Origin: an uncultured Prevotellaceae bacterium
Lineage (GTDB): Bacteria > Bacteroidota > Bacteroidia > Bacteroidales > Bacteroidaceae
DNA: 38,131 bases
Assembly: GCA_902779455.1 (NCBI GenBank)
Contig: CACZBS010000033.1
Coordinates: 1-38,131 of the forward strand
Reading direction: 5' to 3'
Of this stretch, positions 20,021-35,551 are shown in pieces. The notes under the pieces were generated by a model. That model saw only the letters and a program-made list of their open reading frames with translations. It was not told the DNA's origin and made no database searches. Numbering within the stretch: position 1 is the stretch's first letter; each line of letters begins with the position of its first letter. The position numbers were made by a program, and so were the translations under genes.

Positions 20021-20265
20021 AATGTACAATGGATAATGTACAATGTACAATGGATAATGTACAATGTACAATGTACAATGGATAATGTACAATGTACAAT
20101 GAATAATGTACAATGTACAATGAATAATGTACAATGTACAATGAATAATGTACAATGAACAATGAATAATGTACAATGAACAATGAATAATGTACAATGA
20201 ACAATGAACAATGAACAATGAATAATGTACAATGAACTATTAACTATAAACTATGAACTATAAAC
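20021..20265 (+). repeat. heptamer array (31 AATGnnn units, then 4 TATnAAC units)
   Basis: From 20021 to 20237 there are exactly 31 contiguous 7-bp units, each AATG plus TAC, GAT, AAT or AAC, with no break in phase. Four more 7-bp units of the form TATnAAC follow to 20265. The last two carry the cobS start codon and its first codons. The array fills the whole cobT-cobS gap. Because 7 is not a multiple of 3, all three minus-strand frames are open through it and give spurious repeat peptides. Confidence 0.95.
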
Positions 20266-22293: not shown

Positions 22294-22328
22294 AATGGTC
22301 AATATTCAATGGTCAATGATAAATGACT
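22294..22328 (+). repeat. short heptamer array (5 units)
   Basis: Five contiguous 7-bp units, AATGGTC, AATATTC, AATGGTC, AATGATA and AATGACT, fill the gap between two genes. The last overlaps the stop codon of the upstream gene by 2 bp. They follow the AATGnnn rule of the large array at 20021, but the neighbouring genes run in the opposite direction. Confidence 0.75.
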
Positions 22329-23280
22329 ATCTGACTATGTATTTCCTGCCGTTACGGATGTAGAGGCCGGGCTTGAGCGTGTTGACTCGCCGTCCCTGCA
22401 GGTCGTATACGACGGCATCCGTGGCATCCGTTCCTTTCACCTCAGCGACAGCCGTCAGCGTGACGTAGTCGAATGTCACACCGCGTGCCCCGGCCGTGAA
22501 GTCGGCGATGTAGGCCCTGTTGGCGGCGATGGTGGTACCCGTGTAGCACCAGAATCCCAGCTTCTTCTCCCCGTCCTTTGTGGTGTAACCCAGGGTGAGC
22601 ACACTTTTTTCGGTCACCTCCTTCGGTTCTAGTGTTCCTGTGAACTTGTTGGCACTGACATCAGCTGTAGGCTTGGCAACGGTAGTGCCCCATGTGATGC
22701 TCTCACCGCTTCCTTTGACGAGTACACCCGTCTCCTTGGGAATCACACCGCCTGTGATCTTCTCCAGCTCAAGCTTGTCGTCTACGAGTCCCTTTGCACA
22801 GAATGCTGAGACACCGTCGGGGATCCTAGTGTTGAAGGGCAGGCATGTGGTAGCATAGCCCTCTTCTGTGAGCTTGCTGGTGATGGGGGCGGTCAGGTTG
22901 ATGGCATAGGGGGTGTTAGGATATCCCTGCACACCGTCGACCGTATAGGTAAGCCCTTGGTCCACCTCGATGACGCCACCGCGGACAAAGACTCTGAAAT
23001 GAAGTGCCTCGCCGCCATTGCCCCACGCAGTGATGATGGCAAGGTGCTTATCACTTTTAATCGGTGCCTTTCCCCTTATCTCGTCGGCGGCATAGACTGC
23101 CACGATGCCTTCCTCCTGGAGCGTACCGTCGATGAATACCTGTGCACATACGGTCATGTTTGTTGAGCTCTGCTCTGATGCGGGCTCCGGGAACGGGTCG
23201 TTGTTCTGCTGTGCCTTCAGGCTGGTGCTCCCCATGATGAGGAGCGCCAGCAACCAGTTGAATTTCTTCATTGCTTTCAT
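22327..23280 (-). CDS. secreted protein with C-terminal sorting-type tail
   Basis: The protein has 317 residues with a signal peptide (FNWLLALLIMGSTSLKAQ). Residues ~35-130 (VCAQVFIDGTLQEEGIVAVYAADEIRG) form a beta domain like one near the C-terminus of its giant neighbour (VVAQVLVNGVPAAGIEVGVFDKEECR). A middle beta-rich region (~135-275) contains ATTCLPFNTRIPDGVSAFCA and GVLVKGSG. The end reads VVYDLQGRRVNTLKPGLYIRNGRKYIVR, the tail typical of secreted Prevotella proteins and possibly a type IX secretion signal. It starts 18 bp after the giant gene, so the two are made together and probably meet at the cell surface. The function is not known. Confidence 0.8.
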   Translation of the reverse strand: MKAMKKFNWLLALLIMGSTSLKAQQNNDPFPEPASEQSSTNMTVCAQVFIDGTLQEEGIVAVYAADEIRGKAPIKSDKHLAIITAWGNGGEALHFRVFVRGGVIEVDQGLTYTVDGVQGYPNTPYAINLTAPITSKLTEEGYATTCLPFNTRIPDGVSAFCAKGLVDDKLELEKITGGVIPKETGVLVKGSGESITWGTTVAKPTADVSANKFTGTLEPKEVTEKSVLTLGYTTKDGEKKLGFWCYTGTTIAANRAYIADFTAGARGVTFDYVTLTAVAEVKGTDATDAVVYDLQGRRVNTLKPGLYIRNGRKYIVR

Positions 23281-23298: not shown

Positions 23299-26200
23299 TT
23301 ACTTCTTTACTCTCTTCTGGCCGTCCTCGATATAGACACCCTTCTTCAGCGTAGAGCGCTGTACGCCTTCCGTCTGTCGGTATACTCGGCGGCCCTGGAG
23401 GTCATAGAGCATGCTGTCGCTGTCTTGCTGTGTAAGGGTCTCTATGCCGGTCGGCGAGACGCCGACGACGAACGGACTGCGTCGTGAGCCTTGGATGGCA
23501 TCGTTCTCGTAGGGGAGCGTCTCGTTGCATGCTGCAGTCTGGCTGCCGTCATAGACACGGAACGTCATTGTGGCGTGACCGTCGCCGGGGATGGTCAGCA
23601 CTGCAAGCCCGTCTGCATCGGTGACGGCTGCAGCCCTGCACTCCTCCTTGTCGAACACTCCAACCTCGATGCCGGCGGCAGGGACTCCATTGACGAGCAC
23701 CTGTGCCACGACAGTCATATTGCTGGGATAGAGGTGGCAGTCGACAGGCGCGAAGTGGCTTGGAGCCTCATCGTAGCTGGTCATCATTCGTGCACCCGCT
23801 GCAGAGACTGCCTTCGGATAGCGGAACGTACGTGCGTCAGTGGTCTGAATCATGTATCCCTGGCCGGGGACAAGCGACTTGAGGCCGCCGAACCACTCGT
23901 AGCCGTCGTACATGGCCGTGCCACGCTGTCCCTTCACCACGTCGCCGTCGCGAGGATCCATGTCGGCCATTGCGTCAGTGATGCTGATGGTCTGCGATCC
24001 GTTGTATGCCACCCAGTTCCACCCAGGGATGAGCGTGATGGGCGTTGCCTGAGGATCGACCTTCTTGCCCATGATATGGAGGTTGTCGGCCTGGCTCATC
24101 TGCACCTTGTACATCTCCGAGTTGTTGAGTCCGATGGACTGACCATACCAGGTGCCGTCGTAGTTCATCATGGAGATCTTCTTGCTCTTCACCAGTGAAG
24201 TGCTGGCTGAGAGGTCCTTGAACACGACAGGAACGGTCATCTCGTCGAGGGTGACGTTCAGCGAGAGCCAGTTCCATCCCTTGGCGAGCGCCGTGAACTG
24301 CTCCTGGATGTCGACAGCTGAGAGTATCACGGGAACGGCAGGCTTGCCGTACATTCTGTCGACTTGGAAGTTCACATCCTCGCTGGTGACGATCACGGGA
24401 TAGGTGACACCCGTGGAGGCATCGTATGCCTTGAAGGTCACATCCTTGTTCAGTTCGTCGTTATTGCCGTAGATGTCCATAGAGAGCAGGTGGCGGTCGT
24501 AGCGCTGGTTGTATTCCGGACGTGCCAGGCCTCGGCACTCGCCGTCTACGAATGCAGCCACGATGTCGTCGCTGTCCTCACTGGGCACACCCAGAATCTC
24601 AAGGGTACCGATGAGGATCATAGAGCCTTCAAAATCGTTCTCGTTCACTGCCCAGTCAGGCTCCTTACCCTTGACTGTGACGCGGATTGTCAGCGGCACT
24701 TCGATGCCGTCGGTGCCGGTTAGGTAGATGGTCTCCTCGTACTTGCCGATGGGTGTCGACTCGGTGACGGTGAAGGTCACCTTCGTCTCGGCCAGCGGAT
24801 TGGTGGTGCCACTCTCGGCGCTTGCCTGTAGCCATGCCGGCATGCCACTTAGCGTCCACATCTGCATGCTGCCGCCCTTGTTGACGATGGTAGCGCTCAT
24901 TGTACTGGATGTGTTAGCTGGCTGTTCTACGGCCAGTTCGTCATCCTTCCAGACAAGCTGCTTGCAGTTGACGAAGGCACTCCATGTCGTTGGTAGCGAG
25001 TAGTTGCCGTTGAGGTCGCTGACATCGCGTACTGTGAAGTTCAGTGTACAGCCTTCGATGGTGGCAGGGTCCTCGTCGACGGTGATGACGATCTTGTTGT
25101 CAGAAGCCGTGAAGGAGAATCCTACATTGGTCTCGACAGGCTTGGTGCGCAGGGCGGGAGCGTCGGGTGAGTAGGTCGGGGTAACATCTCCTCCGGCTGC
25201 CGAGGGAGCTACGATAGTAAGGGGGATGAGCTGTGCCTTGATACCAGTTCCCGTGAGGTCTTCGTCGTTGCCGTCGGTGACGATCTGGCTGTAGCTGTCA
25301 ATGGTTTTCTTCTCGAAGGGGAAGTAGGCCATCAGTCCGTCCTCTGTTCCCGTGAGGCGCATCTTCCGCTGTTTAGCGAGGAGGTCGGCATTCATGGATG
25401 CACTCCAGAGCCGCAGCTCGTCGATGGTGCCCTTGAAGGGCCGTTCGAAGGCGTATTGGCCGATCTCGTCGGACATGACTGAGGTGCGCTTAGCGCCTAC
25501 GATGAGCTGGTTGGTGTTGATGGTTCCAACGTTAGCGGCGTTGGTAGTGAGCACGCGCTTGCCATCGACATAGACGGCGGCGGCACCTTGGCGGAGCACA
25601 CTGAGAGCGATGTGGTGCCAGGCGTTGTCGAGGATGTTTCCGGCAGAGGTGGTCATGGCTGTGGCGTCAGCGTCGGGCGCGTAGGCGTTCTTGCCGTTGA
25701 GCTGCAGCTGTCCGTCGGTATTGACCCATAGTGCGACGTCGCCCATCTGCAGGAGCTGTGCCTCGGCTTGCTGCTTTTCGCCGCGCATCCAGAATTCGAG
25801 TGCGTAGTCGTCGTTAGGCAGGAGCTGCAGGGCGGAGGCTTCGATGCTGATGCGATGCTCTCCGTCGAGCGTTACGCCGATGTTCTCGTTGTTGAGATAC
25901 CAGTTCTCTGTGGGCATGGTCATGTGTCGGTTGCGTGCGTAGTCGCGGATGGTGGTTCCTTCGCCCTCGTTCATCTTCCAGTATCCGATGAGGTGGCGCG
26001 TGGAGGGACTCTTGGTGACGGAGCGGTCGGCCAAGGCGGTGGTGAGGTCGTGTGCCTCGTCCCAGAGCAGGAGCTCGTGGATGGCACCGTTGAGGCCCTT
26101 GCCTACGGCAAGCGGTCCGTCTCCATCGTACTTAGCGACGGGCTTGTCGTTGAAGAAGTGTATGGTCTCGCTGTCGGAGGCTACGGCAGCGGAGAGCTTT

Positions 26201-29200
26201 CCGCCGTCGTCGGCCTGCTGGTAGCTGACGGTGAGGAATACCCATTTGTCGGTGGGTATGGTCGGTGCCGGTGATTGCCCATCACCTTGAGCGGTGTAGG
26301 TGTCGTTGCCGAGTGTGACAATGAGATGGGCCTGGTCGTCGGTGGCGATAGTCATCTTCGACGTGCCGATTCCGTGGCTGAGCAGTGTGCCTGCCCCCTG
26401 GACATTGACCCACATATCGAAGGCAAAGTCCTTACCTGACAGGGTGACACCAGCCTCCGTCTGTGCTGTCGGACTCTCGCCGCCGGTAGCGCGCAGTGCT
26501 GTCTCGTGGGCTACTGGTGAGCCGTTGAGTATACCTGTCAGCTTGAAGTTGGCGGTCTTGGTGAGTGCGCCTTTCACGACGTTTTCGTTGAAGGTGATGC
26601 TGACATCCTCGCCGGCCTCGAGTATGCCGTCGGAAGGCTCGGGCAGTCCGAGCGGCGTGGGCCGCTGCATGTCCTTGGTCAGGGCTATCTCGTCGCTGTA
26701 GCAATAGACCTCGCTGGTGCCGTAGGTGCTGGCTGAGACGACTCGGAAGAGATAGCTGCCGTCGTTGAACTGAGCCATGGGCAGTGTGTAGCTGACGGAG
26801 GCCCCTGTTGCGGGCAGTATCTCGTTGTTGGTTGTCACGTCAGCAGTATTGACCACGTATTCGTGGAACTGTATCCAGTCGGCAGCTCCCTGCGGCATGT
26901 ACTGCAGTCGGAAGGCTTTCAGTCCTCGGTAATTGCGGTTGAAGCCGGAGAATGTCAGGGTGAGGTCGGAGCCCGTCTCGGTGTTCATCAGCGTGTTGGA
27001 TAGTGCGAGATCCACCTCCGACGATGATGGCACGAAGTGGGCCGAGATCTTGACGGTGTCGGCGATGACGTCCCAGGTGCTGGTCGGGTCGAATTGGCAC
27101 TGCGATGCGAGCACGAGCGCGATGTCCTCGTAGTCGAGGATGCTGGTGTTGGTCTGCTTGAGCTGTAGCGCCTTGGTGACCGTCTGTCCTGCGGGAATCT
27201 TGATGACGCGGCTGTCGGTGACGGGCTTTCCGTCAATCGTCAGGTTGGCGCCGTCGGGGTTGGACTCGTCGTCGACGAGCAGCCGGTAGTAGACGTCCTC
27301 GTCGATATCGGATGCGTTGGAGAGCCGCAGCGTGTAGTCGGCCGTGCCGCCAGTGGGTATGTCGCTGAGGATGGGCACGTCGACGTTGATCTGTGGCACT
27401 TCAATCTGCATCGTAGCCTCCATGATGACGGGATGATTTCCCTTGTCGTCTACGTAGTACTTGGTACGTTCCTCTCCCTCATACGGACAGCAGGTCTGTC
27501 CACCGCGGGTGTGGAAAATAGGTCCGAAGCCGTCGTATCCCAGCACGTCCACCGACAATGCGTCGTCGTCGCCGTCCTCTGCCAGGGTGTAGCTGAACGT
27601 CGTTGTTTCGGTGGTGCCGTCGGAGTGTACCTCGTGTCGTCCGCCCATGGTCTCGTCTTGCAGATGCACCTCGAGTCCGAAGCCCTTGATGTTTAATCCG
27701 AAGGTGTTATCGACGACCAGTCCTGCTTTGACGCTCCATTCGCGCGTGGTGGTGTTTTCGTCCGCCACCTCTACTTCGTAGCTGTAGGAGGTTCCGCTGT
27801 CAAATGAGATATTGTCGCCTATGAGGTAGTCTTTCCTTTTATCGAAGGACTTCACCTTGGCCTCTTCGTTGCCAGCGATGAATTCGTGCCAGTTTTCGAT
27901 TTCGGTGTTGTAGGTGAGCACGTTGTCGTTGGCCGTTCCACTGACATTCATGGGGTCGGGCTCGAAGGTCTTGAATGTCCCGGTCTCGCCGAAGTGCGGG
28001 TCGTCCTTGCCGAGTGTGGTGAGATAGACGTAGTGGTCGGTGGTGTTGGTATAGCTGTCGATGGTAGCCTGGTCGGTAGTGGTGATGAGGCTGTTGCGCA
28101 GCAGCTCATAATTGGGTATGAGAACGTTTTCAATGTAGTTCTGCGTGTACATGAACATGGTGCCGAAGTCCATGCTGGTGGTGGTGATGTCCTCCAGGCC
28201 TATCTTCATGCTGTTGTCCGACTGGCGCTGGAAACCTACGTTGCGAGCCTTGCCGAAGACGAGGTTGGTGGAGCGTCCCACGTAGACGTCGCCCTGTGCA
28301 CCAACGTACTCGGGTGCTGCCGATGTGCTGATGGTCTGTGTGACGGTGGTGGTGGACACGTAGGTCTTGCTGTCCTCGAGTTCCGACTCCATCTTGGCGC
28401 CTACCTCAAGGTCGTCCTTCGACTCGATTTCCTCGAGCGTACCTGCTGCAGGTGTGCCGATGATGATGTTCTGCTTGAATCCGAACCTGTGCTTGACGCC
28501 TGCCGAGAAGTTCTCCACCATGGTGTTGCCCAGCACCGTAGTACTGGTGGTGGCGCTGCCCTTCTTCCATTCTGCGAACGAGTTGGTGCCTGGCGGGTCG
28601 CGCAGGATCATTTCCAGTTTCTGCGGTCCGGTGGTTACGAAGTTGTTGCCTGTTCCCAGCTCGCCCAGTACGATGCCTTCCATGCCGTTGCCGACCCACT
28701 CGTGGGTACGTCCGTCGATGTCGTAGGTCATGGAGATGGTGCGGGTGTATGGCTCTGCGATGTTGGGCAGTCCGGCCTTCCACTTGTAGGTGGCCTTGCC
28801 CTCGTCATCGAGCTGCAGCTGGTTGCTCTTCAAGTCGACCACCTGTCCGGGTTCGACGTTCTCGCCGTTGACTGTTCCCGACTCAACATATACGCTCTGT
28901 GCCGACGAGAGTGCGTTGCTGATGGTGACGATGCTGCCAGCCAGTGGCACGTTGTCGGCCTGGCCGTTGTCGGCATTGACGTACTCCTCGTAGCCTTCGA
29001 GCAGGAAGGTGTAGTTATCCTTCATCACGAACAGGGGTGCCTTGTGGCCGTCGACGCCGTAGTTGTAGGTCACCAGTCCGTTCTCGGCCGTGTAGATGTC
29101 GTCGATGGTCTGTTCGCTGACTTCGTCGGAGTACTTATAGCTGCTGATGCCGAACGAGCCGTCGGTGCGGCCCTGCTGCCGCACGCTGAACGTGGGCAGG

Positions 29201-32200
29201 CTGTGGTAGGTCTGCTTCAGGCAGGTGTTGTACTCGTACAGCTGGTAGTTCTCGCGGCTCTCGTCGTAGAGCGTGTCGGCTAAGACGATGTTCGGGTTGG
29301 AGAGGTCGACTTCCTGCTGGTCGCCGAAATCGATGGCGGAGTTTTTCATTACCGTCATGCTGCTGATATTGTATTTGATGGGTGGCAGCATGGCAGAGAA
29401 CTCGCCCGTCTCGGGGTCGGTCTGTATGACGATCTTCTGACAGTCGGCGATTGTTTCGCCTCCTTTGCGGACCGAGTTACTGTTGATGCGTTCGGTGGCC
29501 GATGCTACGGGGACGTCGTTCTTGTTGTTCTGGATGTCGATCACGCCCTCTTTCTTTTGCACGTCCACGTTCATGCGGTAGTTGCCCGGTGGTGTGAGCA
29601 CCAACTGGGTCACGCCGATGTTGTTGTTGCTCAGCCCGAAGCCTACGGGCTTGTCGCCCTGGATGCTGCCGCCCACAATGCGTCCGGTGAAGTTGACCAG
29701 CGTCTCGTCGGAGAACTCCAGATTGGTGACTTTGCCATTGAACGGCTCTTTATTTTCGTTCAGTCCGCTGGGGTCTTCAGGGAAGCGTCCGCCTTTGGCA
29801 AACACATGTCCGCTCTTGGCTACGGTGATGAAGTGGTCGCCGATGGGCACGTTGATTTCGAAAGCACCGTTGGCGTCGGTCTGGATGATTTCGCCACTGC
29901 GCGAGCACACGCTGCCGTCGACGTAGAGGGTGACGCCCTCCACGGGGAAGTCGGTGCCGGCGTAATAGACGTATCCGCTGACGGGGAACGACGAGATGTC
30001 CTCGAAGTTGGTGTTGTTGTGTACCAGCGAGTTGCTGCTCACGTAGCGCAGTTGCTGTGTGGGGTTGAACTTGTGGATGCCCAGCTGCGGAATGACGGCG
30101 TAGGTAGTGCCTTCGCCTGAGAAGGGCACGCCCTGGATGATGTAGTTGCCGTCCACGTCAGTCTTGGCTTTCAGTGCCAGGCGCTCGGGAGTGCGGGTGT
30201 CGGGCTTGGCGTTGCTGCCTATCTTGCCGTGGTGGTTGTTATAAACGGTACCGTCGCGTGAGTAGTCGAAGAACTGTGTTTTCAGACCCTCGTCGAAGGT
30301 CCAGTAGGTCTCCAGGCTCTTCTCGTTGCCCACAAGCAGGTGGTCGTAGTTGTTCTGCACCTCGTCCTTCGTCAGGCTTTTTGTCCAGAGGCGGAACTCG
30401 TCGACATAGCCCTTGAAGTAGCCGAGCTCGAACCTGCTGGTCTCGCCCAGGTTCATGTCGCCGTCCAGCTGCAGCGTGTCGGCCGTGAGCTGCGGGTTGC
30501 CGTCGGCATCGGTCTGGATGAGGTAGCAGGCCAGGTCGTTGCCGTTGCGCGTCAGCGTCACGTGGTTGTACTCGCCCTTATGCAGTCTGAGGTCGAATTC
30601 GTAGTTCTTGCTGCCGTCGTTGAAGAGCAACTGTCCGCTGTTGTACATGGCGAGGCCCATGCCGTTGCGCAGGCGTGCGAACCATACGCTGCGGAATTCC
30701 TCGGGCATCATCCACAGCTGAATGGAGAAGTTGCCTTTGTCGAACTTGTCCTTGGCATAGCTGGCAGAGGGATACTCCCATGCCACGGTGCCGTTGTCGG
30801 CCGTGAAGTGCATAGCCTGATACTGTGCCTGGTCGGCGCTCGACTCGCCCGTTTTCTTGGCAACGACGTCGACGTCAGCCACTGCCACGCCCGATGTTCC
30901 GAAGGTGATGCGTCCGCTCACGGTGCCTGTGGTCTGTGCAAAGCCGATGTTGTACGTCTCGGTCTTGATCTCCTGTCCGTTGTCACACTTGTCAACTAGC
31001 GTCAGGCGATAGTCGTAATAGACGCCCGGGAGGGGTGTCTCGTCGGTGAAGAACACATATTCGTCGGCGCTGTTCATGCGTTGGAGTGTGGTCCAAGTCT
31101 CGTTTTCCTTCTCTGCATGGCGCCGTTCGATGATGTAGGTCTTTGACCCGGAGACACTGAGCGCATCCACATGCCACGACAACTTCACGATACCGGCATA
31201 GCTGCCCTTGCTGGCCTCGAACTCGTAGATACGCGTCCCGTTGCCTACGCCCTTATTGCTTACCGACGCCTCGTTGAGTGTCTTCTCTCCGATGACGCCT
31301 TCTATGCGGTAATTGTGTGGCGAACAGGCGCTCAGGGGCTCCTCCACAAAGTGAACGCCCGTCACGGCATCCACCTTCGTCTGCCGGTCGGCGTGCTGGT
31401 CGGTGGAGCGGTGCTCCCACTGGAAGTTCGTCTGTTTGTCGCCTGGTGTGATGGTGGCTATGGGTTCGGTCTCATTGTCCACGTAGATGTTGAACACGTT
31501 GCCCCAGCCTTCGGGATAGGCGTCGGACGTCCAGGTGAACACGATGCGGTCGTCCTGACTCTCGGCATTCAGGTTGGTGACGGGCACCGTGCGGGTGGTG
31601 CTTATCGTTTTCGTCTGTGCCTTACATTCGTCCTTCTTTGTGTCCTCGTTCCAGGTGTTCGAGACGTAATAGACGTAGTAGGTAAACGACGATTCGTTCT
31701 CGAAGCTGGTGTCAGTGTATGTGAATGGTCGGGCTGCATTCGACGTTACCGTGCCCAGTTTTTCGTCGCCGCGATACACCACCCACTTGTAGTCGGTATA
31801 GTTGCCGGGAATGTTGGCAACGTTCCAGGTCAGCACCACGTTGCGTGCCTCTTGGTTGAACACGCCTTCGAGGCTTGAGGCCATCACGGTAGGCGGGCTG
31901 ATGGTCACTGTCTTGCTCGACTCGGCGCTGTTGTTGGCATATGAGCCGCCGTTGAGGCGGTATTTCACCGTGTGGCTGCCAACGGTTTCCGCCGTGGGGC
32001 TGGTGGTCCACGAGCCGCCGTCGACGCTGTATTCCATCGTTCCGTAGTTCGAGGGCGTTGTCTTCAGCAGCCCCTGAGCCTTGCCGTTATAGACGAGGTC
32101 TTCATAGAACTCAGGATGATTCTTGATCGACAGCGTCTGTTCTTTGAAGTAGAGCCTGAGGTAGATGAATTTGCCACCGGCACCTTTGTTCAGGTCACAG

Positions 32201-32832
32201 GGCCCGCTGAAGGTTTCAATCCAGTACATAGGGCCATAGTTGTCTGTGCCGTTTCCGTCGCTGCTGTTGGTGTTGTCCGAGGTGGTAAGTTTGCTCAGGA
32301 CGCGCTTCGTACCGTAATGATTATTCAGGTTTGCACGTTCGCGCGTGTAGTAAATGTATATGAATTCGCCCTCGGCACCCTGGTTCAGGTCGCCGTTACC
32401 GCCGTCATGGGGAACTTGATACCACGTCTTTCCCGCTTTGACGAAAGAACTCTTGTTGTTTGTCGAGGCTTGGATGTCGGTGATGTAGCCCGTTTCCGGG
32501 TTGGCCGAATCGCTCGTCTTGTATGCCAAGAGTATCCATTGACCTCCGGCATCTTGGTTCAAATCCTGTGAAAGAACTGTCCAACCTTGGTTCTGATAAG
32601 ATTCCTTTACTTTCTTGATGTCGCCTTCGGAGCCTCTTGATAGAATTTTCAGTTCGGTGATATAGCTTTCAGCCTTCACCGATGGCAGAGCCGCGAAGAA
32701 CATGACGAGCAGAAGCAAGAGCCTGTTCCTCACGCCAACATTGTCCCTAAGCAGCCTCAGCAATCTGCTGCGCTGCCTACACACTAATCCTGCGTTTGCA
32801 GGAGGTGAGTCGTTGTGTCTTGTAGTTTCCAT
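23299..32832 (-). CDS. giant secreted multidomain surface protein (3177 residues)
   Basis: I chose the ATG at 32832, close to the signal peptide (RLLLLLVMFFAALPSVKA); an in-frame ATG at 32874 would add 14 residues. Order: three-fold repeat with DLNQDAGGQWILLAY, DLNQGAEGEFIYIYY and DLNKGAGGKFIYLRLY (~60-230, MABP/beta-prism-like); fibronectin-like domains (~240-630); carboxypeptidase-regulatory-like domains near 636 and 950; a LamG-like domain (~670-850); a long unassigned centre (~1000-2050) rich in Thr/Ser/Glu; two further LamG-like domains (~2118-2260, ~2318-2500); a BACON-like domain (~2640-2725); two similar GWNW-containing units (~2848 and ~2938); a regulatory-like beta domain; and the tail DLQGRRV...KKGVYIEDGQ. 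No enzyme active site is evident. It is probably a surface adhesin or glycan-binding scaffold, but this is inference. Confidence 0.88.
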   Translation of the reverse strand: METTRHNDSPPANAGLVCRQRSRLLRLLRDNVGVRNRLLLLLVMFFAALPSVKAESYITELKILSRGSEGDIKKVKESYQNQGWTVLSQDLNQDAGGQWILLAYKTSDSANPETGYITDIQASTNNKSSFVKAGKTWYQVPHDGGNGDLNQGAEGEFIYIYYTRERANLNNHYGTKRVLSKLTTSDNTNSSDGNGTDNYGPMYWIETFSGPCDLNKGAGGKFIYLRLYFKEQTLSIKNHPEFYEDLVYNGKAQGLLKTTPSNYGTMEYSVDGGSWTTSPTAETVGSHTVKYRLNGGSYANNSAESSKTVTISPPTVMASSLEGVFNQEARNVVLTWNVANIPGNYTDYKWVVYRGDEKLGTVTSNAARPFTYTDTSFENESSFTYYVYYVSNTWNEDTKKDECKAQTKTISTTRTVPVTNLNAESQDDRIVFTWTSDAYPEGWGNVFNIYVDNETEPIATITPGDKQTNFQWEHRSTDQHADRQTKVDAVTGVHFVEEPLSACSPHNYRIEGVIGEKTLNEASVSNKGVGNGTRIYEFEASKGSYAGIVKLSWHVDALSVSGSKTYIIERRHAEKENETWTTLQRMNSADEYVFFTDETPLPGVYYDYRLTLVDKCDNGQEIKTETYNIGFAQTTGTVSGRITFGTSGVAVADVDVVAKKTGESSADQAQYQAMHFTADNGTVAWEYPSASYAKDKFDKGNFSIQLWMMPEEFRSVWFARLRNGMGLAMYNSGQLLFNDGSKNYEFDLRLHKGEYNHVTLTRNGNDLACYLIQTDADGNPQLTADTLQLDGDMNLGETSRFELGYFKGYVDEFRLWTKSLTKDEVQNNYDHLLVGNEKSLETYWTFDEGLKTQFFDYSRDGTVYNNHHGKIGSNAKPDTRTPERLALKAKTDVDGNYIIQGVPFSGEGTTYAVIPQLGIHKFNPTQQLRYVSSNSLVHNNTNFEDISSFPVSGYVYYAGTDFPVEGVTLYVDGSVCSRSGEIIQTDANGAFEINVPIGDHFITVAKSGHVFAKGGRFPEDPSGLNENKEPFNGKVTNLEFSDETLVNFTGRIVGGSIQGDKPVGFGLSNNNIGVTQLVLTPPGNYRMNVDVQKKEGVIDIQNNKNDVPVASATERINSNSVRKGGETIADCQKIVIQTDPETGEFSAMLPPIKYNISSMTVMKNSAIDFGDQQEVDLSNPNIVLADTLYDESRENYQLYEYNTCLKQTYHSLPTFSVRQQGRTDGSFGISSYKYSDEVSEQTIDDIYTAENGLVTYNYGVDGHKAPLFVMKDNYTFLLEGYEEYVNADNGQADNVPLAGSIVTISNALSSAQSVYVESGTVNGENVEPGQVVDLKSNQLQLDDEGKATYKWKAGLPNIAEPYTRTISMTYDIDGRTHEWVGNGMEGIVLGELGTGNNFVTTGPQKLEMILRDPPGTNSFAEWKKGSATTSTTVLGNTMVENFSAGVKHRFGFKQNIIIGTPAAGTLEEIESKDDLEVGAKMESELEDSKTYVSTTTVTQTISTSAAPEYVGAQGDVYVGRSTNLVFGKARNVGFQRQSDNSMKIGLEDITTTSMDFGTMFMYTQNYIENVLIPNYELLRNSLITTTDQATIDSYTNTTDHYVYLTTLGKDDPHFGETGTFKTFEPDPMNVSGTANDNVLTYNTEIENWHEFIAGNEEAKVKSFDKRKDYLIGDNISFDSGTSYSYEVEVADENTTTREWSVKAGLVVDNTFGLNIKGFGLEVHLQDETMGGRHEVHSDGTTETTTFSYTLAEDGDDDALSVDVLGYDGFGPIFHTRGGQTCCPYEGEERTKYYVDDKGNHPVIMEATMQIEVPQINVDVPILSDIPTGGTADYTLRLSNASDIDEDVYYRLLVDDESNPDGANLTIDGKPVTDSRVIKIPAGQTVTKALQLKQTNTSILDYEDIALVLASQCQFDPTSTWDVIADTVKISAHFVPSSSEVDLALSNTLMNTETGSDLTLTFSGFNRNYRGLKAFRLQYMPQGAADWIQFHEYVVNTADVTTNNEILPATGASVSYTLPMAQFNDGSYLFRVVSASTYGTSEVYCYSDEIALTKDMQRPTPLGLPEPSDGILEAGEDVSITFNENVVKGALTKTANFKLTGILNGSPVAHETALRATGGESPTAQTEAGVTLSGKDFAFDMWVNVQGAGTLLSHGIGTSKMTIATDDQAHLIVTLGNDTYTAQGDGQSPAPTIPTDKWVFLTVSYQQADDGGKLSAAVASDSETIHFFNDKPVAKYDGDGPLAVGKGLNGAIHELLLWDEAHDLTTALADRSVTKSPSTRHLIGYWKMNEGEGTTIRDYARNRHMTMPTENWYLNNENIGVTLDGEHRISIEASALQLLPNDDYALEFWMRGEKQQAEAQLLQMGDVALWVNTDGQLQLNGKNAYAPDADATAMTTSAGNILDNAWHHIALSVLRQGAAAVYVDGKRVLTTNAANVGTINTNQLIVGAKRTSVMSDEIGQYAFERPFKGTIDELRLWSASMNADLLAKQRKMRLTGTEDGLMAYFPFEKKTIDSYSQIVTDGNDEDLTGTGIKAQLIPLTIVAPSAAGGDVTPTYSPDAPALRTKPVETNVGFSFTASDNKIVITVDEDPATIEGCTLNFTVRDVSDLNGNYSLPTTWSAFVNCKQLVWKDDELAVEQPANTSSTMSATIVNKGGSMQMWTLSGMPAWLQASAESGTTNPLAETKVTFTVTESTPIGKYEETIYLTGTDGIEVPLTIRVTVKGKEPDWAVNENDFEGSMILIGTLEILGVPSEDSDDIVAAFVDGECRGLARPEYNQRYDRHLLSMDIYGNNDELNKDVTFKAYDASTGVTYPVIVTSEDVNFQVDRMYGKPAVPVILSAVDIQEQFTALAKGWNWLSLNVTLDEMTVPVVFKDLSASTSLVKSKKISMMNYDGTWYGQSIGLNNSEMYKVQMSQADNLHIMGKKVDPQATPITLIPGWNWVAYNGSQTISITDAMADMDPRDGDVVKGQRGTAMYDGYEWFGGLKSLVPGQGYMIQTTDARTFRYPKAVSAAGARMMTSYDEAPSHFAPVDCHLYPSNMTVVAQVLVNGVPAAGIEVGVFDKEECRAAAVTDADGLAVLTIPGDGHATMTFRVYDGSQTAACNETLPYENDAIQGSRRSPFVVGVSPTGIETLTQQDSDSMLYDLQGRRVYRQTEGVQRSTLKKGVYIEDGQKRVKK

Positions 32833-32902
32833 AACGTTTTTATTTAGTGAGTTGATAATAGGTTTTATTGTCAATAGTGTATGTTTGTGGATTGCTAATT
32901 CG

Positions 32903-33091
32903 TCAATTTATAATCAGCCGGCGCCGAAGCTCGTCGCGGAGCTCGACATTCTCACGGATCTCGCGGATGATGGCATCGTTCTTGTCGCGTAGCTCCTGCT
33001 GGTTGCGCATATTGCGCCACAGCAGCACGCAGACGAGGACGACGAGCGCTGCGATGATACCGATGAGTAGGATGGCTGTCTCTGATGGCAT
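32903..33091 (-). CDS. small single-pass membrane protein with coiled coil
   Basis: The 62 residues comprise a membrane helix at ~6-26 (AILLIGIIAALVVLVCVLLW) and a charged helical tail (NQQELRDKNDAIIREIREN...) likely to form a coiled coil. It is the first gene after the promoter at 33113 and 70 bp before the giant gene. The plan resembles many small unclassified membrane proteins. A role in the membrane step of export or anchoring of the giant protein is possible but only suggested by position. Confidence 0.65.
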   Translation of the reverse strand: MPSETAILLIGIIAALVVLVCVLLWRNMRNQQELRDKNDAIIREIRENVELRDELRRRLIIN

Positions 33092-33112: not shown

Positions 33113-33142
33113 CAAAGATAGGTATTTTTTTAATGCGCGCAA
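33113..33142 (-). promoter_or_regulatory. promoter of the giant-protein operon
   Basis: On the minus strand, TTG (33140-33142) and TATCTTTG (33113-33120) are separated by 19 bp. The first start codon is 21 bp downstream. The phased repeats at 33149-33227 lie directly upstream of the -33 element. Confidence 0.75.
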
Positions 33143-33148
33143 TAGTTT

Positions 33149-33227
33149 AGACGAATAATCGGACATTTTCAGACGAATTCACGGATGAAAAGACGAATTC
33201 ACGGATGTCTCAGACGAATTCGCGGAA
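33149..33227. promoter_or_regulatory. phased operator-like direct repeats upstream of the operon promoter
   Basis: Four copies start at 33149 (AGACGAATAATCGGA), 33171 (AGACGAATTCACGGATG), 33191 (the same 17-mer) and 33212 (AGACGAATTCGCGGAAG). The steps are 22, 20 and 21 bp, about two helical turns, and the nearest copy lies 7 bp from the -33 element. This is the geometry expected for an AraC-family activator. The TPR-AraC regulator encoded immediately upstream is the obvious candidate to bind it. Confidence 0.7.
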
Positions 33228-33399
33228 GGAAATCAAGGCGATGAGACATCAAGAAAACAAGATGGAGGATATCAAGACAACAAGACGATGGGACATCAAG
33301 ACTAACAAGACAACAAAATAAGCAAGACATCAAGACGGTCTGTTTCGTGTCCTGATGTCTTGTTGTCAACTCTTATTGTCTTGATGTCTTGATGTCAAG
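33228..33399. repeat. low-complexity TCAAGACA-type repeats with a 14-bp inverted repeat
   Basis: The segment is built from variants of CATCAAGACA and ACAACAAGAC, followed by their complements. CAAGACATCAAGAC (33323-33336) and GTCTTGATGTCTTG (33378-33391) are a perfect inverted repeat with a 41-nt loop. It lies just past the stop of the regulator gene and may help terminate that transcript, though no clear T-run follows. Confidence 0.6.
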
Positions 33400-35262
33400 T
33401 TATGTGGTCTTGATGTCAACTTGCTCCCGGAACTGAGTGGGGGTGAGGGCGTACTTCTGCTTGAAGTTGCGGCCGAAGGTGTCAGCACTGGAGAATCCGC
33501 TCTGACGAGCTACGTCGGCAATGGGTAGATCGGGCTGGTCGGTGAGGAGCTTGGCTGCGTAGGGCAGGCGGCAGTCGGTGAGGAAGTCGATGAGCGACTT
33601 GAACGGGCTGCCTTTGCTGAAGGCTGCGCCGATGCGCTCCTTGGGCAGGTTGAAGCGCTCCACGAGTGCCTGACGGCCGAGCATCGGGTCAAGGTAGAGC
33701 TGCTCACGCAGGATGACTTCACGGAGCTTCTGGTAGAGGACGGAGTCGGAATCTTCTTCGTCCTCGGGAGCTACTTCTGCTGCTTGCGAGAGAACCTGAC
33801 CAGTGCCAGGAGTATCCCCATCGGGGGGTGACAGAGTGACTCTGTTGGCATTTGCGCTCTCCCACATCTCTTTATATTTGATGGTTTCGGCTATCTCGCG
33901 TGCCAGCACATGGTTCTTCTTGTTGGTCTCGCGCCGCTTGTAGAAGATATACACGGAGAAGGCGATGGCTGCCAGCAGTCCTGCAATGATGGCTATAGTC
34001 AGCAGGCGGAGGAAACGGGCGTCAGCCTCAGCTTCCTTGCGTGCGAGCTGCTCTTCCTGCAGGTGATAGACGGTGGCCAGCTCATTAAGCTGCTCACGCT
34101 GGTTGCGAGCATCCAGGCTGTCGCGCACGATACTGGCTCGCTCCAGGTATTCGATGGCTTCGCTGAGGCGACCGCGCATCTTTGCTGCCACGCAACATGA
34201 GGTGAGACGAATGAAATTGTTGACGTTGATAGTATCATTTCCCATCTTGGCAGCAATGAGGTCCATAGCTTTATCAAACCGTTCGAACTCTCCCATAAAG
34301 TGGTATACACCGCTCATCATGCGTTCGCAGTCGAGGGTTTTACTCCAAGGTAGGCGTTGCAAGTTGGCTTCAGTAGCCCGGGCTTTTGCCAAATACTGTG
34401 GTCCCATACCGTCGCCGGCAGAATTTGCCAGCCGTGCGTAGGCAGCAGCAAGGAAGACAAGTGCCTGACCTTCAGCCATATCAGTGAATTCCGATGTGTC
34501 GAAACCCTCGGCGATGCCGCTGAAACGGTCGGGATGGTCGCGCAGCTCTCTGACGCGCTTGAGCATAGCTTCGCACACGGGTATCATCTTGGTCAGCCGA
34601 TTATTCTCTACCAGGATGTGAAGTAGGTGCTTCGCAGTGTTCGTGTAGACAACGACTCCTTGGAATGAGTCTTCCTCTTGCAGCTCTTCAAGGATGGCAT
34701 CCAGACGGTCGATGCCTTCGTCTGTCCTGCCGGTATGAGCCATAGCCTTAGCTATAGAACTTTCGGAAGAAGCGATGTCGCTGAAATCTCCACTGCTATG
34801 TGCAAGTCGCGATGCCTCTGTGGCATAGCGTATGGCAGCGGGATAGTTGCCTGAGGAGTGTTCAATGGTTGTCAGAAGCTGGTAGACACGTAACAAGGTG
34901 ACGGAGTCGACTTCTGTTTTTTTTCGACTCGGCGTTTTGCTGTTGGCTTTCTGGTCGATGTCGTCCAGCAGTTGGAGGCATGTCTGTCGTGCCAAGGGAT
35001 AATTGTCTAATCCGCCATATTGAGTGATAGCCTTCAGGTATTCACCACGCATCGGAGTGATGTTGCCCACGATGACAGCCGAATCAATTATCACCAATGC
35101 CCGTTCCGGATTATTGCGATGAATGCTCATGGCCTTTGGCTCGGTGTAGACGATGTCGGCGCCATCAGGACGGCTGCTGTCGTCTGCGGACTGCTGGCAG
35201 CAGGTCAGCAGCATCGCCATGAAGCTGCATAAAATAGATAATGTGAGCTTCCGCTGTTTCAT
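33400..35262 (-). CDS. TPR-transmembrane AraC-family regulator
   Basis: I chose the ATG at 35262, which begins a signal sequence (MKQRKLTLSILCSFMAMLLTCC); an ATG 24 bp upstream is also open. The LLTCC segment resembles a lipobox. Residues ~40-410 are helical repeats of the TPR type, ending in a long helix (EQLNELATVYHLQEEQLARKE). A membrane helix lies at ~417-441 (LTIAIIAGLLAAIAFSVYIFY), and an AraC domain in the last ~75 residues (LPIADVARQSGFSSADTFGRNFKQKY). This family senses an extracytoplasmic cue and binds DNA from the membrane. It precedes the giant operon in the same direction, with operator-like repeats between the two, so that operon is its likely target. The poly-A run near the K-K-K codons at ~34915 is prone to slippage. 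Confidence 0.87.
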   Translation of the reverse strand: MKQRKLTLSILCSFMAMLLTCCQQSADDSSRPDGADIVYTEPKAMSIHRNNPERALVIIDSAVIVGNITPMRGEYLKAITQYGGLDNYPLARQTCLQLLDDIDQKANSKTPSRKKTEVDSVTLLRVYQLLTTIEHSSGNYPAAIRYATEASRLAHSSGDFSDIASSESSIAKAMAHTGRTDEGIDRLDAILEELQEEDSFQGVVVYTNTAKHLLHILVENNRLTKMIPVCEAMLKRVRELRDHPDRFSGIAEGFDTSEFTDMAEGQALVFLAAAYARLANSAGDGMGPQYLAKARATEANLQRLPWSKTLDCERMMSGVYHFMGEFERFDKAMDLIAAKMGNDTINVNNFIRLTSCCVAAKMRGRLSEAIEYLERASIVRDSLDARNQREQLNELATVYHLQEEQLARKEAEADARFLRLLTIAIIAGLLAAIAFSVYIFYKRRETNKKNHVLAREIAETIKYKEMWESANANRVTLSPPDGDTPGTGQVLSQAAEVAPEDEEDSDSVLYQKLREVILREQLYLDPMLGRQALVERFNLPKERIGAAFSKGSPFKSLIDFLTDCRLPYAAKLLTDQPDLPIADVARQSGFSSADTFGRNFKQKYALTPTQFREQVDIKTT

Positions 35263-35340
35263 TGGTCGAACGGTTTTTGGACGCATGTATATTTGGACTT
35301 TTCGGTAGTAGCCCTTTCAGACTTTTTCTCTAGTTGGGTG

Positions 35341-35372
35341 CAAAGATACAAAAATTCAATCTTTCTGCCAAA
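35341..35372 (-). promoter_or_regulatory. promoter of the TPR-AraC regulator
   Basis: On the minus strand, TTTG (35369-35372), a 20-bp spacer and TATCTTTG (35341-35348) give a near-ideal Bacteroidetes promoter. The leader to the start codon is about 78 nt. Confidence 0.8.
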
Positions 35373-35449: not shown

Positions 35450-35551
35450 GTTCCTCCCCATGGAACGAAATAGTCCTCCCCACGGAACAAAACGTTCCAC
35501 CCCATGGAACAGTTGTTGTGAACGGTTCAAGCGCCCGATGAGTACGGTTCA
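35450..35551. promoter_or_regulatory. 22-bp-phased repeat array upstream of the regulator promoter
   Basis: CCCCATGGAAC, CCCCACGGAAC and CCCCATGGAAC start at 35456, 35478 and 35500, exactly 22 bp apart. ACGGTTCA at 35522 and 35544 keeps the same 22-bp phase. Units one and three are dyads, GTTCC-7 nt-GGAAC, and the stretch GGAAC-AAAAC-GTTCC at 35484-35498 is a further palindrome. It probably binds a regulator. No gene is visible between 35552 and 35655. Confidence 0.6.

Follow-up and report, generated by a model that had tools for sequence, protein, structure and literature searches.

Direct-repeat half-sites about 21 bp apart that end at the -35/-33 element are used by AraC at I1-I2 and by XylS at Pm, both of which are soluble cytoplasmic proteins sensing small molecules, and a position upstream of the -33/-35 element without overlap is the usual place for an AraC-type activator. 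In Bacteroides thetaiotaomicron, the accessible part of a previous report describes predicted direct-repeat operators for AraC-type hybrid two-component (HTCS) regulators whose tandem sites are on average 21 bp apart, with examples of 12-16-bp sites and a motif similarity that follows the similarity of the DNA-binding domains, and gives predicted SusR-like sites as 67 or 77 bp apart (PMC3878776). Here, we examined a stretch of 38,131 nucleotides from an uncultured Prevotellaceae bacterium (assembly GCA_902779455.1, contig CACZBS010000033.1; hereafter the window), in which a regulator gene is followed by an array of direct repeats and by an operon that includes a giant gene.

The window locus shares features with each of these systems. 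Like the HTCS, its regulator has a predicted membrane-spanning sensor and a C-terminal AraC-type domain, and its direct repeats are 20-22 bp apart compared with the average of 21 bp given in the part of the report cited (PMC3878776). The earlier note on this DNA had held that AraC-type proteins often bind direct repeats of about this spacing. The published HTCS average, together with the correlated domains described there, makes the DNA geometry one of a known kind. However, a Pfam search at E 0.001 recognized in the regulator only TPR_12 (sub-threshold), HTH_18 and HTH_AraC, and no histidine kinase or CheY-like receiver domain; thus the regulator, whose sensor is of the TPR type, is not an HTCS, and its targets are small membrane, giant and secreted proteins rather than susC/susD-type genes. 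The half-sites resemble those of AraC/XylS activators both in spacing and in lying next to the -35/-33 element, whereas a membrane anchor and a TPR sensor are predicted for the regulator. As with SusR-like proteins, this is a Bacteroidetes regulator with tandem operator sites, but the spacing of 20-22 bp is not that of 67 or 77 bp, and the NCBIfam SusR-like match was weak (residues 142-204; E 1.9e-4; score 20.8 bits, cut-off 480). There was a similarly weak match to HK_Porph_FimS (residues 371-461; E 2e-4; score 19.8 bits, cut-off 600); FimS is a sensor histidine kinase, whereas the window regulator has a DNA-binding domain of its own. In the open-licence part of PubMed Central we found no description of a TPR-membrane-AraC family, its operator, a small membrane partner or giant targets, and the regulator family, the partner and the targets look undescribed.

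All genes of the locus are on the minus strand, in the order regulator, repeat-rich 173-bp spacer, array, promoter, 62-aa gene, giant gene and 317-aa gene. The regulator gene (33400..35286) encodes 628 aa, with an N-terminal hydrophobic helix, a TPR superhelix, a long helix through the membrane and an AraC-type DNA-binding domain. HTH_18 (PF12833) was found at the C-terminus (3.3e-13, 50.1 bits against a cut-off of 33.6), and the corresponding region of an AlphaFold2 model is an all-helical domain (514-627), which places the protein in the AraC/XylS family with regard to DNA binding. In this model, for which the window protein was combined with 20 relatives (mean pLDDT 80, pTM 0.55), an N-terminal helix (13-30) is followed by TPR-like helices (49-370), a continuous helix that includes the membrane segment (374-479) and a low-confidence linker before the DNA-binding domain. 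Among the Foldseek matches listed, the best solved structures were TPR superhelices including LGN, KLC and Rap (E 1e-5 to 8e-4, modest TM-scores); as these three are peptide- or protein-binding, the ligand of the modelled TPR domain is probably a protein or peptide. The domain itself is probably periplasmic. A TPR-membrane-AraC regulator gene just upstream had also been named in the earlier note. Some other TPR-membrane-AraC genes are followed by a second AraC domain 0.8-0.9 kb further on (L019, L025, G248:C20, G107:C13, G367:C49).

Directly after the regulator stop codon there is a long imperfect hairpin (33292..33396, minus strand) made of GACATCAAGACAACAAG-type repeats, and the 173-nt spacer has a folding energy of -56.7 kcal/mol (z -5.5); this hairpin is a possible terminator for the regulator gene. 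Upstream of this gene, direct reading gave a -7-like element TATCTTTG of its own promoter (35341..35348, minus strand), a region in which our promoter model had no match. Further repeats in the window are a 21-bp (3 x 7) tandem array with the consensus ATGTACAATGAACAATGAATA, between two reading frames at 20021-20234, and a 22-bp direct repeat, TCCTCCCCATGGAACAAAACAG, present in 2.7 copies at 35452-35511, upstream of the regulator gene itself.

The operator array consists of three exact copies of GAATTCGTCT and one 8/10 copy on the minus (operon) strand, with spacings of 22, 20 and 21 bp. On the plus strand the copies start at 33149 (AGACGAATAA, 2 mismatches), 33171, 33191 and 33212 (the last three exact) and span 33149-33221; Tandem Repeats Finder reported a repeat of period 20 at 33169-33226. 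The four positions and the phasing of about 21 bp are those claimed earlier, with the correction that the copy nearest to the promoter (33149) is the degenerate one. Described as 15-bp units on the minus strand, half-site 1 is the promoter-proximal TCCGATTATTCGTCT (33149..33163), half-sites 2 (33171..33185) and 3 (33191..33205) are both TCCGTGAATTCGTCT, at 22 bp from half-site 1 and 20 bp from half-site 2, respectively, and half-site 4 is TCCGCGAATTCGTCT (33212..33226), at 21 bp from half-site 3. Six bp separate the proximal half-site from the -33 element TTG (33140..33142) of a Bacteroidetes-type promoter, whose -7 element TATCTTTG (33113..33120) resembles the sigma-ABfr consensus, given in the available part of its source as TTTG at about -33 and TAnnTTTG at -7 (PMC7366714). 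The placement of the array just upstream of a well-formed promoter was therefore correctly recognized in the earlier note.

None of 300 order-1 Markov versions of the window contained any 10-mer three times within 60 bp without overlap, and in the real window only the array word and a microsatellite-like array (about 20.0-20.2 kb) did so. The word with up to 2 mismatches was only mildly enriched in the window (41 observed, 28.4 expected), which means that the clustering is the signal and not the count. In the 3.7-Mb genome, AGACGAATTC occurs seven times: three in the window array, one in the promoter of a paralogous cassette, two within long reading frames and one as a lone copy. No Rfam family was found at the gathering threshold in 32.6-33.7 kb of the window. 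It might be argued that the array is a neutral minisatellite whose period is roughly three units of 7 bp, given that the array at 20,021-20,234 is a real 21-bp/7-bp one in a spacer of this very genome and that the repeat at 35,452-35,511 has a 22-bp period. However, the spacings of 22, 20 and 21 bp with diverged spacers, the conservation of place and register in a paralog and in other species, and the agreement within promoters of half-sites but not of spacers all differ from copies that lack conserved position or function, and we consider this explanation extremely improbable.

The first gene of the operon (32903..33091, minus strand) encodes a 62-aa membrane/coiled-coil protein; in correction of the earlier note, it is this gene and not the giant that comes first after the promoter. 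The giant protein, with a signal-peptide-like start and Laminin_G_3 domains, is encoded at 23299..32832 on the same strand; its frame is open from a TTG at 32874, with ATG 32832 as the likely start. A 317-aa protein that also has a signal-peptide-like start is encoded 18 bp past the giant's stop codon (22327..23280, minus strand) and is likely to be the last gene of the operon.

In many modules, though not in all, the first gene after the promoter encodes a short protein in which a single membrane helix precedes a charged helix. The charged helix has a KN(D/E)xIIRE(I/V)-like signature (28 sequences, some near-identical; 18 aligned). By a strict motif count the small membrane protein was present in 16 of 37 modules, a count that missed members seen otherwise, and a few modules had none. 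In four comparisons with the window small gene, pN/pS was 0.37-0.46, differences being mostly synonymous per site, and the 62-aa gene is thus probably real. The family profile matched the membrane/juxtamembrane helix of the regulator (KNRVLAREIAE) with an hhalign probability of 96% and E 2.6e-9; the score of 45 compared with at most 26 for reversed and 200 block-shuffled profiles, and none of the 200 shuffled profiles reached it. The relation is seen by family profiles only, as small protein and regulator matched weakly in pairwise BLAST (E 6.6 in the window and 0.011 on contig 41). We suggest that the 62-aa protein may give feedback on, or partner, the regulator. In L241 and L255, the small-type protein is the front part of a longer protein, and the second AraC domain of L019 lies on a short membrane protein that looks like a longer version of it.

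A second cassette is present on contig 41 of the same assembly, with a regulator 57% identical to that of the window, ATTCGTCT twice at a distance of 22 bp in the same place, a promoter of the same type, and genes for a small membrane protein of 67 aa and a giant of 3,197 aa. The genome (assembly 93% complete) holds two DNA-binding domains of the window's class, both scoring at least 213 bits, and the next scored 62.9; the promoter model gave two matches above 32 bits, at the same two loci, and these cassettes have the only strong arrays in the genome. One further candidate, C25 (31.4 bits), was rejected: its distal half-site is missing, and the gene that follows, of 1,087 aa, is one that we take to be carB. 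The nearest named record, the uncultured Prevotellaceae isolate RUG424 (L257), has an identical DNA-binding domain.

Among 398 genomes of the genus, 91 had matches to a 1,601-residue stretch of the giant; the family of about 3,200 aa (L027-L056, L057-L136) is secreted-looking and often has two matches per genome, sometimes in tandem on one contig. Upstream regions were taken for 80 of the listed giant matches, a few being too short for the start codon, and ten further stretches were added, four of which (L167-L170) were chosen through matches of an exact-pattern scan. Fifteen array promoters, 11 beside a regulator gene and 4 not, were aligned, leaving out the near-identical L057 and L080. In all 15, a distance of exactly 22 bp separates the last two repeats, and TTGC follows the repeats at a fixed distance, which also fixes the -33 element relative to half-site 1; the -7 element is largely conserved, and the spacer between the repeats is variable. 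These promoters therefore have the form of AraC/XylS operators, namely direct-repeat half-sites two helical turns apart upstream of -33.

In the eight genomes with this DNA-binding domain class (at least 198 bits), the array was found upstream of 12 of the 15 giants identified by protein similarity and was absent from L066, L085 and L115; the four additional array promoters (L167-L170) came from the pattern scan and not from protein similarity. Only two of the other 67 among the 80 regions (L098, L084) had a promoter-model match of at least 33 bits. The exact pattern TTCGTCTN{13,15}TTCGTCT matched in 73 of 398 genomes, and as a reversed control pattern was also common, the bare pattern is not specific and the promoter-anchored model is better. 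Exact-pattern places outside giant loci were looked at in G369, G130 and G407; dispersed or tandem repeats of about 22 bp with TTCGTCT and a shared spacer occur in G407, G262, G002 and G117 (one G407 place viewed). Distant TPR-AraC homologues of 26-40% identity (8 of 60 relatives) were not taken as orthologues, as no giant was present in the stretches fetched for them.

For the whole genus, two scans covered the same 398 genomes, one with a sequence-only model made from the 15 promoters and the other with a profile derived from nine DNA-binding domains; each scored only 10-11 candidates per genome. Weak promoter-model matches (E 0.05) were present in all 398 genomes, those listed lying largely on the promoter core. 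We compared the 60 promoter matches of at least 33 bits, a line set after the list was seen, with the 100 best domain matches; the training promoters score in this model by construction, and the 43 matches outside the training contigs are considered here. Most of these (31/43) start on the same strand as a regulator-domain match, 7-388 bp beyond its end. Three are about 2 kb away, on the other side of the domain and on the opposite strand, and are probably divergent promoters, and nine have no listed domain on the right side, one of them (G336:C118:47172) being upstream of a giant (L084). Viewed from the regulator, 43 of the 100 best domain matches had a promoter match of at least 33 bits downstream and 57 did not; some of the latter carry another 22-bp repeat and others showed none.

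In named genomes, whose record titles refer to ruminant gut samples or to RUG/RUI/UBA metagenome isolates, 22 of 24 regulator loci had a strong promoter match downstream (E 3e-9 or better). Training promoters or their near copies account for ten of the 24; of the remaining 14, 12 were positive. The two negatives are L266, where the contig ends with 177 bp left, and L279, which keeps the regulator but has a single half-site and is an exception to the conserved register. Loci that keep regulator and operon and lose the repeats, which the earlier note had named as evidence against its proposal, are thus not the rule, and nearly all same-domain cassettes keep the 22-bp register. The idea of a complete regulator-operator-operon set is supported by this recurring linkage, although it had missed both the small membrane protein and the recurrence throughout the genus.

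To compare half-sites with each other, 82 distinct DNA-binding domains were reduced to 37 non-redundant modules having a pair of ATTYGTCY-like words 22 bp apart, most of them beside recognizable promoter elements; arrays that start within 14 bp of the stop codon were skipped, and those of L263, L278 and L280 were read by eye. In this set the spacing and the word were selected, and the seven bases before the word were unselected. At these seven bases, the two half-sites of one promoter agree in 68-100% of cases per position and half-sites of different promoters in 32-51% (permutation P=0.0002, the floor of the test, at each position; shared ancestry is not corrected for). Outside -7 to +7, bases mostly do not agree beyond chance, with the exception of +12 (P 0.005), and the agreement within promoters over -7 to +7 thus gives a recognized unit of about 15 bp. 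The 5' part of the unit varies between modules (TCCGTGA, TCCGACC, GGGTCCA, CTTTAGC, CCCTGCA), and both half-sites of a promoter vary in concert, as would be the case if they were read by a single protein. Operator distance was correlated with DNA-binding-domain distance (Mantel r 0.59 for the variable box and 0.63 with the second helix-turn-helix half, versus 0.27 for the spacer control), and as the spacer control is also above zero, shared ancestry contributes to this correlation.

Apparent domain swapping among paralogous regulators separates the DNA-binding domain from the rest of the locus, and is the nearest that these data come to an experiment. In L060, L066 and L069 the TPR part is 40-52% identical to that of the window and the AraC domain is of another class (31%), and the array is absent downstream of all three regulators, with the caveats that in L069 the next gene begins after only 38 bp and that the gene after L066's regulator is not a giant. 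In contrast, L059 (TPR 42%, domain 80%) and L062 (TPR 40%, domain 73%) carry the window's domain class together with the array. Thus, a diverged TPR part with the window's domain goes with the array, and a swapped domain goes without it.

These data also bear on whether the array might be the operator of another DNA-binding protein, for instance an unlinked HTCS, the linkage to the regulator being incidental. Four of the 15 training promoters (L058, L061, L167, L170) indeed have no regulator gene directly beside them. However, all four genomes hold this regulator class, most strong promoter-model matches elsewhere in the genus adjoin this regulator family, and the half-site sequence follows the DNA-binding domain of the neighbour, so that we regard a different binder as very unlikely. 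Array promoters without an adjoining regulator in regulator-holding genomes rather suggest that the regulator may control a small regulon.

Some modules have an additional element, a terminator-like hairpin over the promoter (L238, L239, L242-L250, L252-L255; e.g. GTCCGTACCC-TTGT-GGGTACGGAC-TTTTT), in which the 5' arm is the end of the proximal half-site, the loop holds the -33 TTG and the T-run falls in the -33/-7 spacer. At least eight of ten hairpin pairs are kept in 12 of 19 ATTTGTCT-type modules, some pairs having changed on both sides, and this is not so in the other seven; the window promoter has no promoter-overlapping hairpin. By such a hairpin, transcription of the regulator gene may be terminated right at the promoter of the target.

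It is most likely (a probability of about 0.8, judged from sequence) that the array consists of half-sites of the adjacent regulator, an inner-membrane one-component activator that would bind them as a head-to-tail pair upstream of -33 and activate the operon. The TPR domain, probably in the periplasm, would sense a ligand and be joined to the AraC domain by one long helix crossing the membrane. Upon the signal, the AraC domain would bind half-sites 1 and 2, two 15-bp direct repeats 22 bp or two helical turns apart, so that a head-to-tail pair lies on one DNA face, and the bound regulator, 6 bp upstream of -33, could then contact RNA polymerase. This would switch on the genes for the 62-aa membrane protein, the 3,200-aa secreted protein and the second secreted protein. 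Half-sites 3 and 4, which are kept in some relatives, probably load more dimers or add occupancy.

The same regulator could instead use the array to repress the operon, or to both repress and activate it, as up to four half-sites could load a filament and a DNA sequence by itself is compatible with either sign of regulation. In the 15 aligned promoters, however, the proximal half-site lies 6 bp upstream of -33 and does not overlap the region from -33 to -7, and on the ground of this position we infer activation rather than repression, the latter being unlikely. With regard to the activator and its operon, a more tentative proposal, to which we give somewhat less than even odds, is that each cassette is self-contained and evolvable: the 62-aa protein, as a stand-alone copy of the regulator helix, might pair with it in the membrane and tune it, shut it off or aid its dimerizing, and the DNA-binding domain and half-sites might drift together such that paralogous cassettes stay insulated from each other.

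The analysis provides a DNA-level rule for membrane-anchored TPR-AraC regulators, namely 15-bp half-sites that are 22 bp apart and fixed to -33, and the arrangement recurs in related gut bacteria with different DNA words. This rule lets targets be read off in rumen-type Prevotella, which are known mostly from assembled metagenomes and have giant secreted proteins to which no function is assigned. With the small membrane protein there is a definite and testable candidate for feedback, and the many paralogous modules with drifting half-sites form a natural data set for the co-evolution of AraC domains and their operators.
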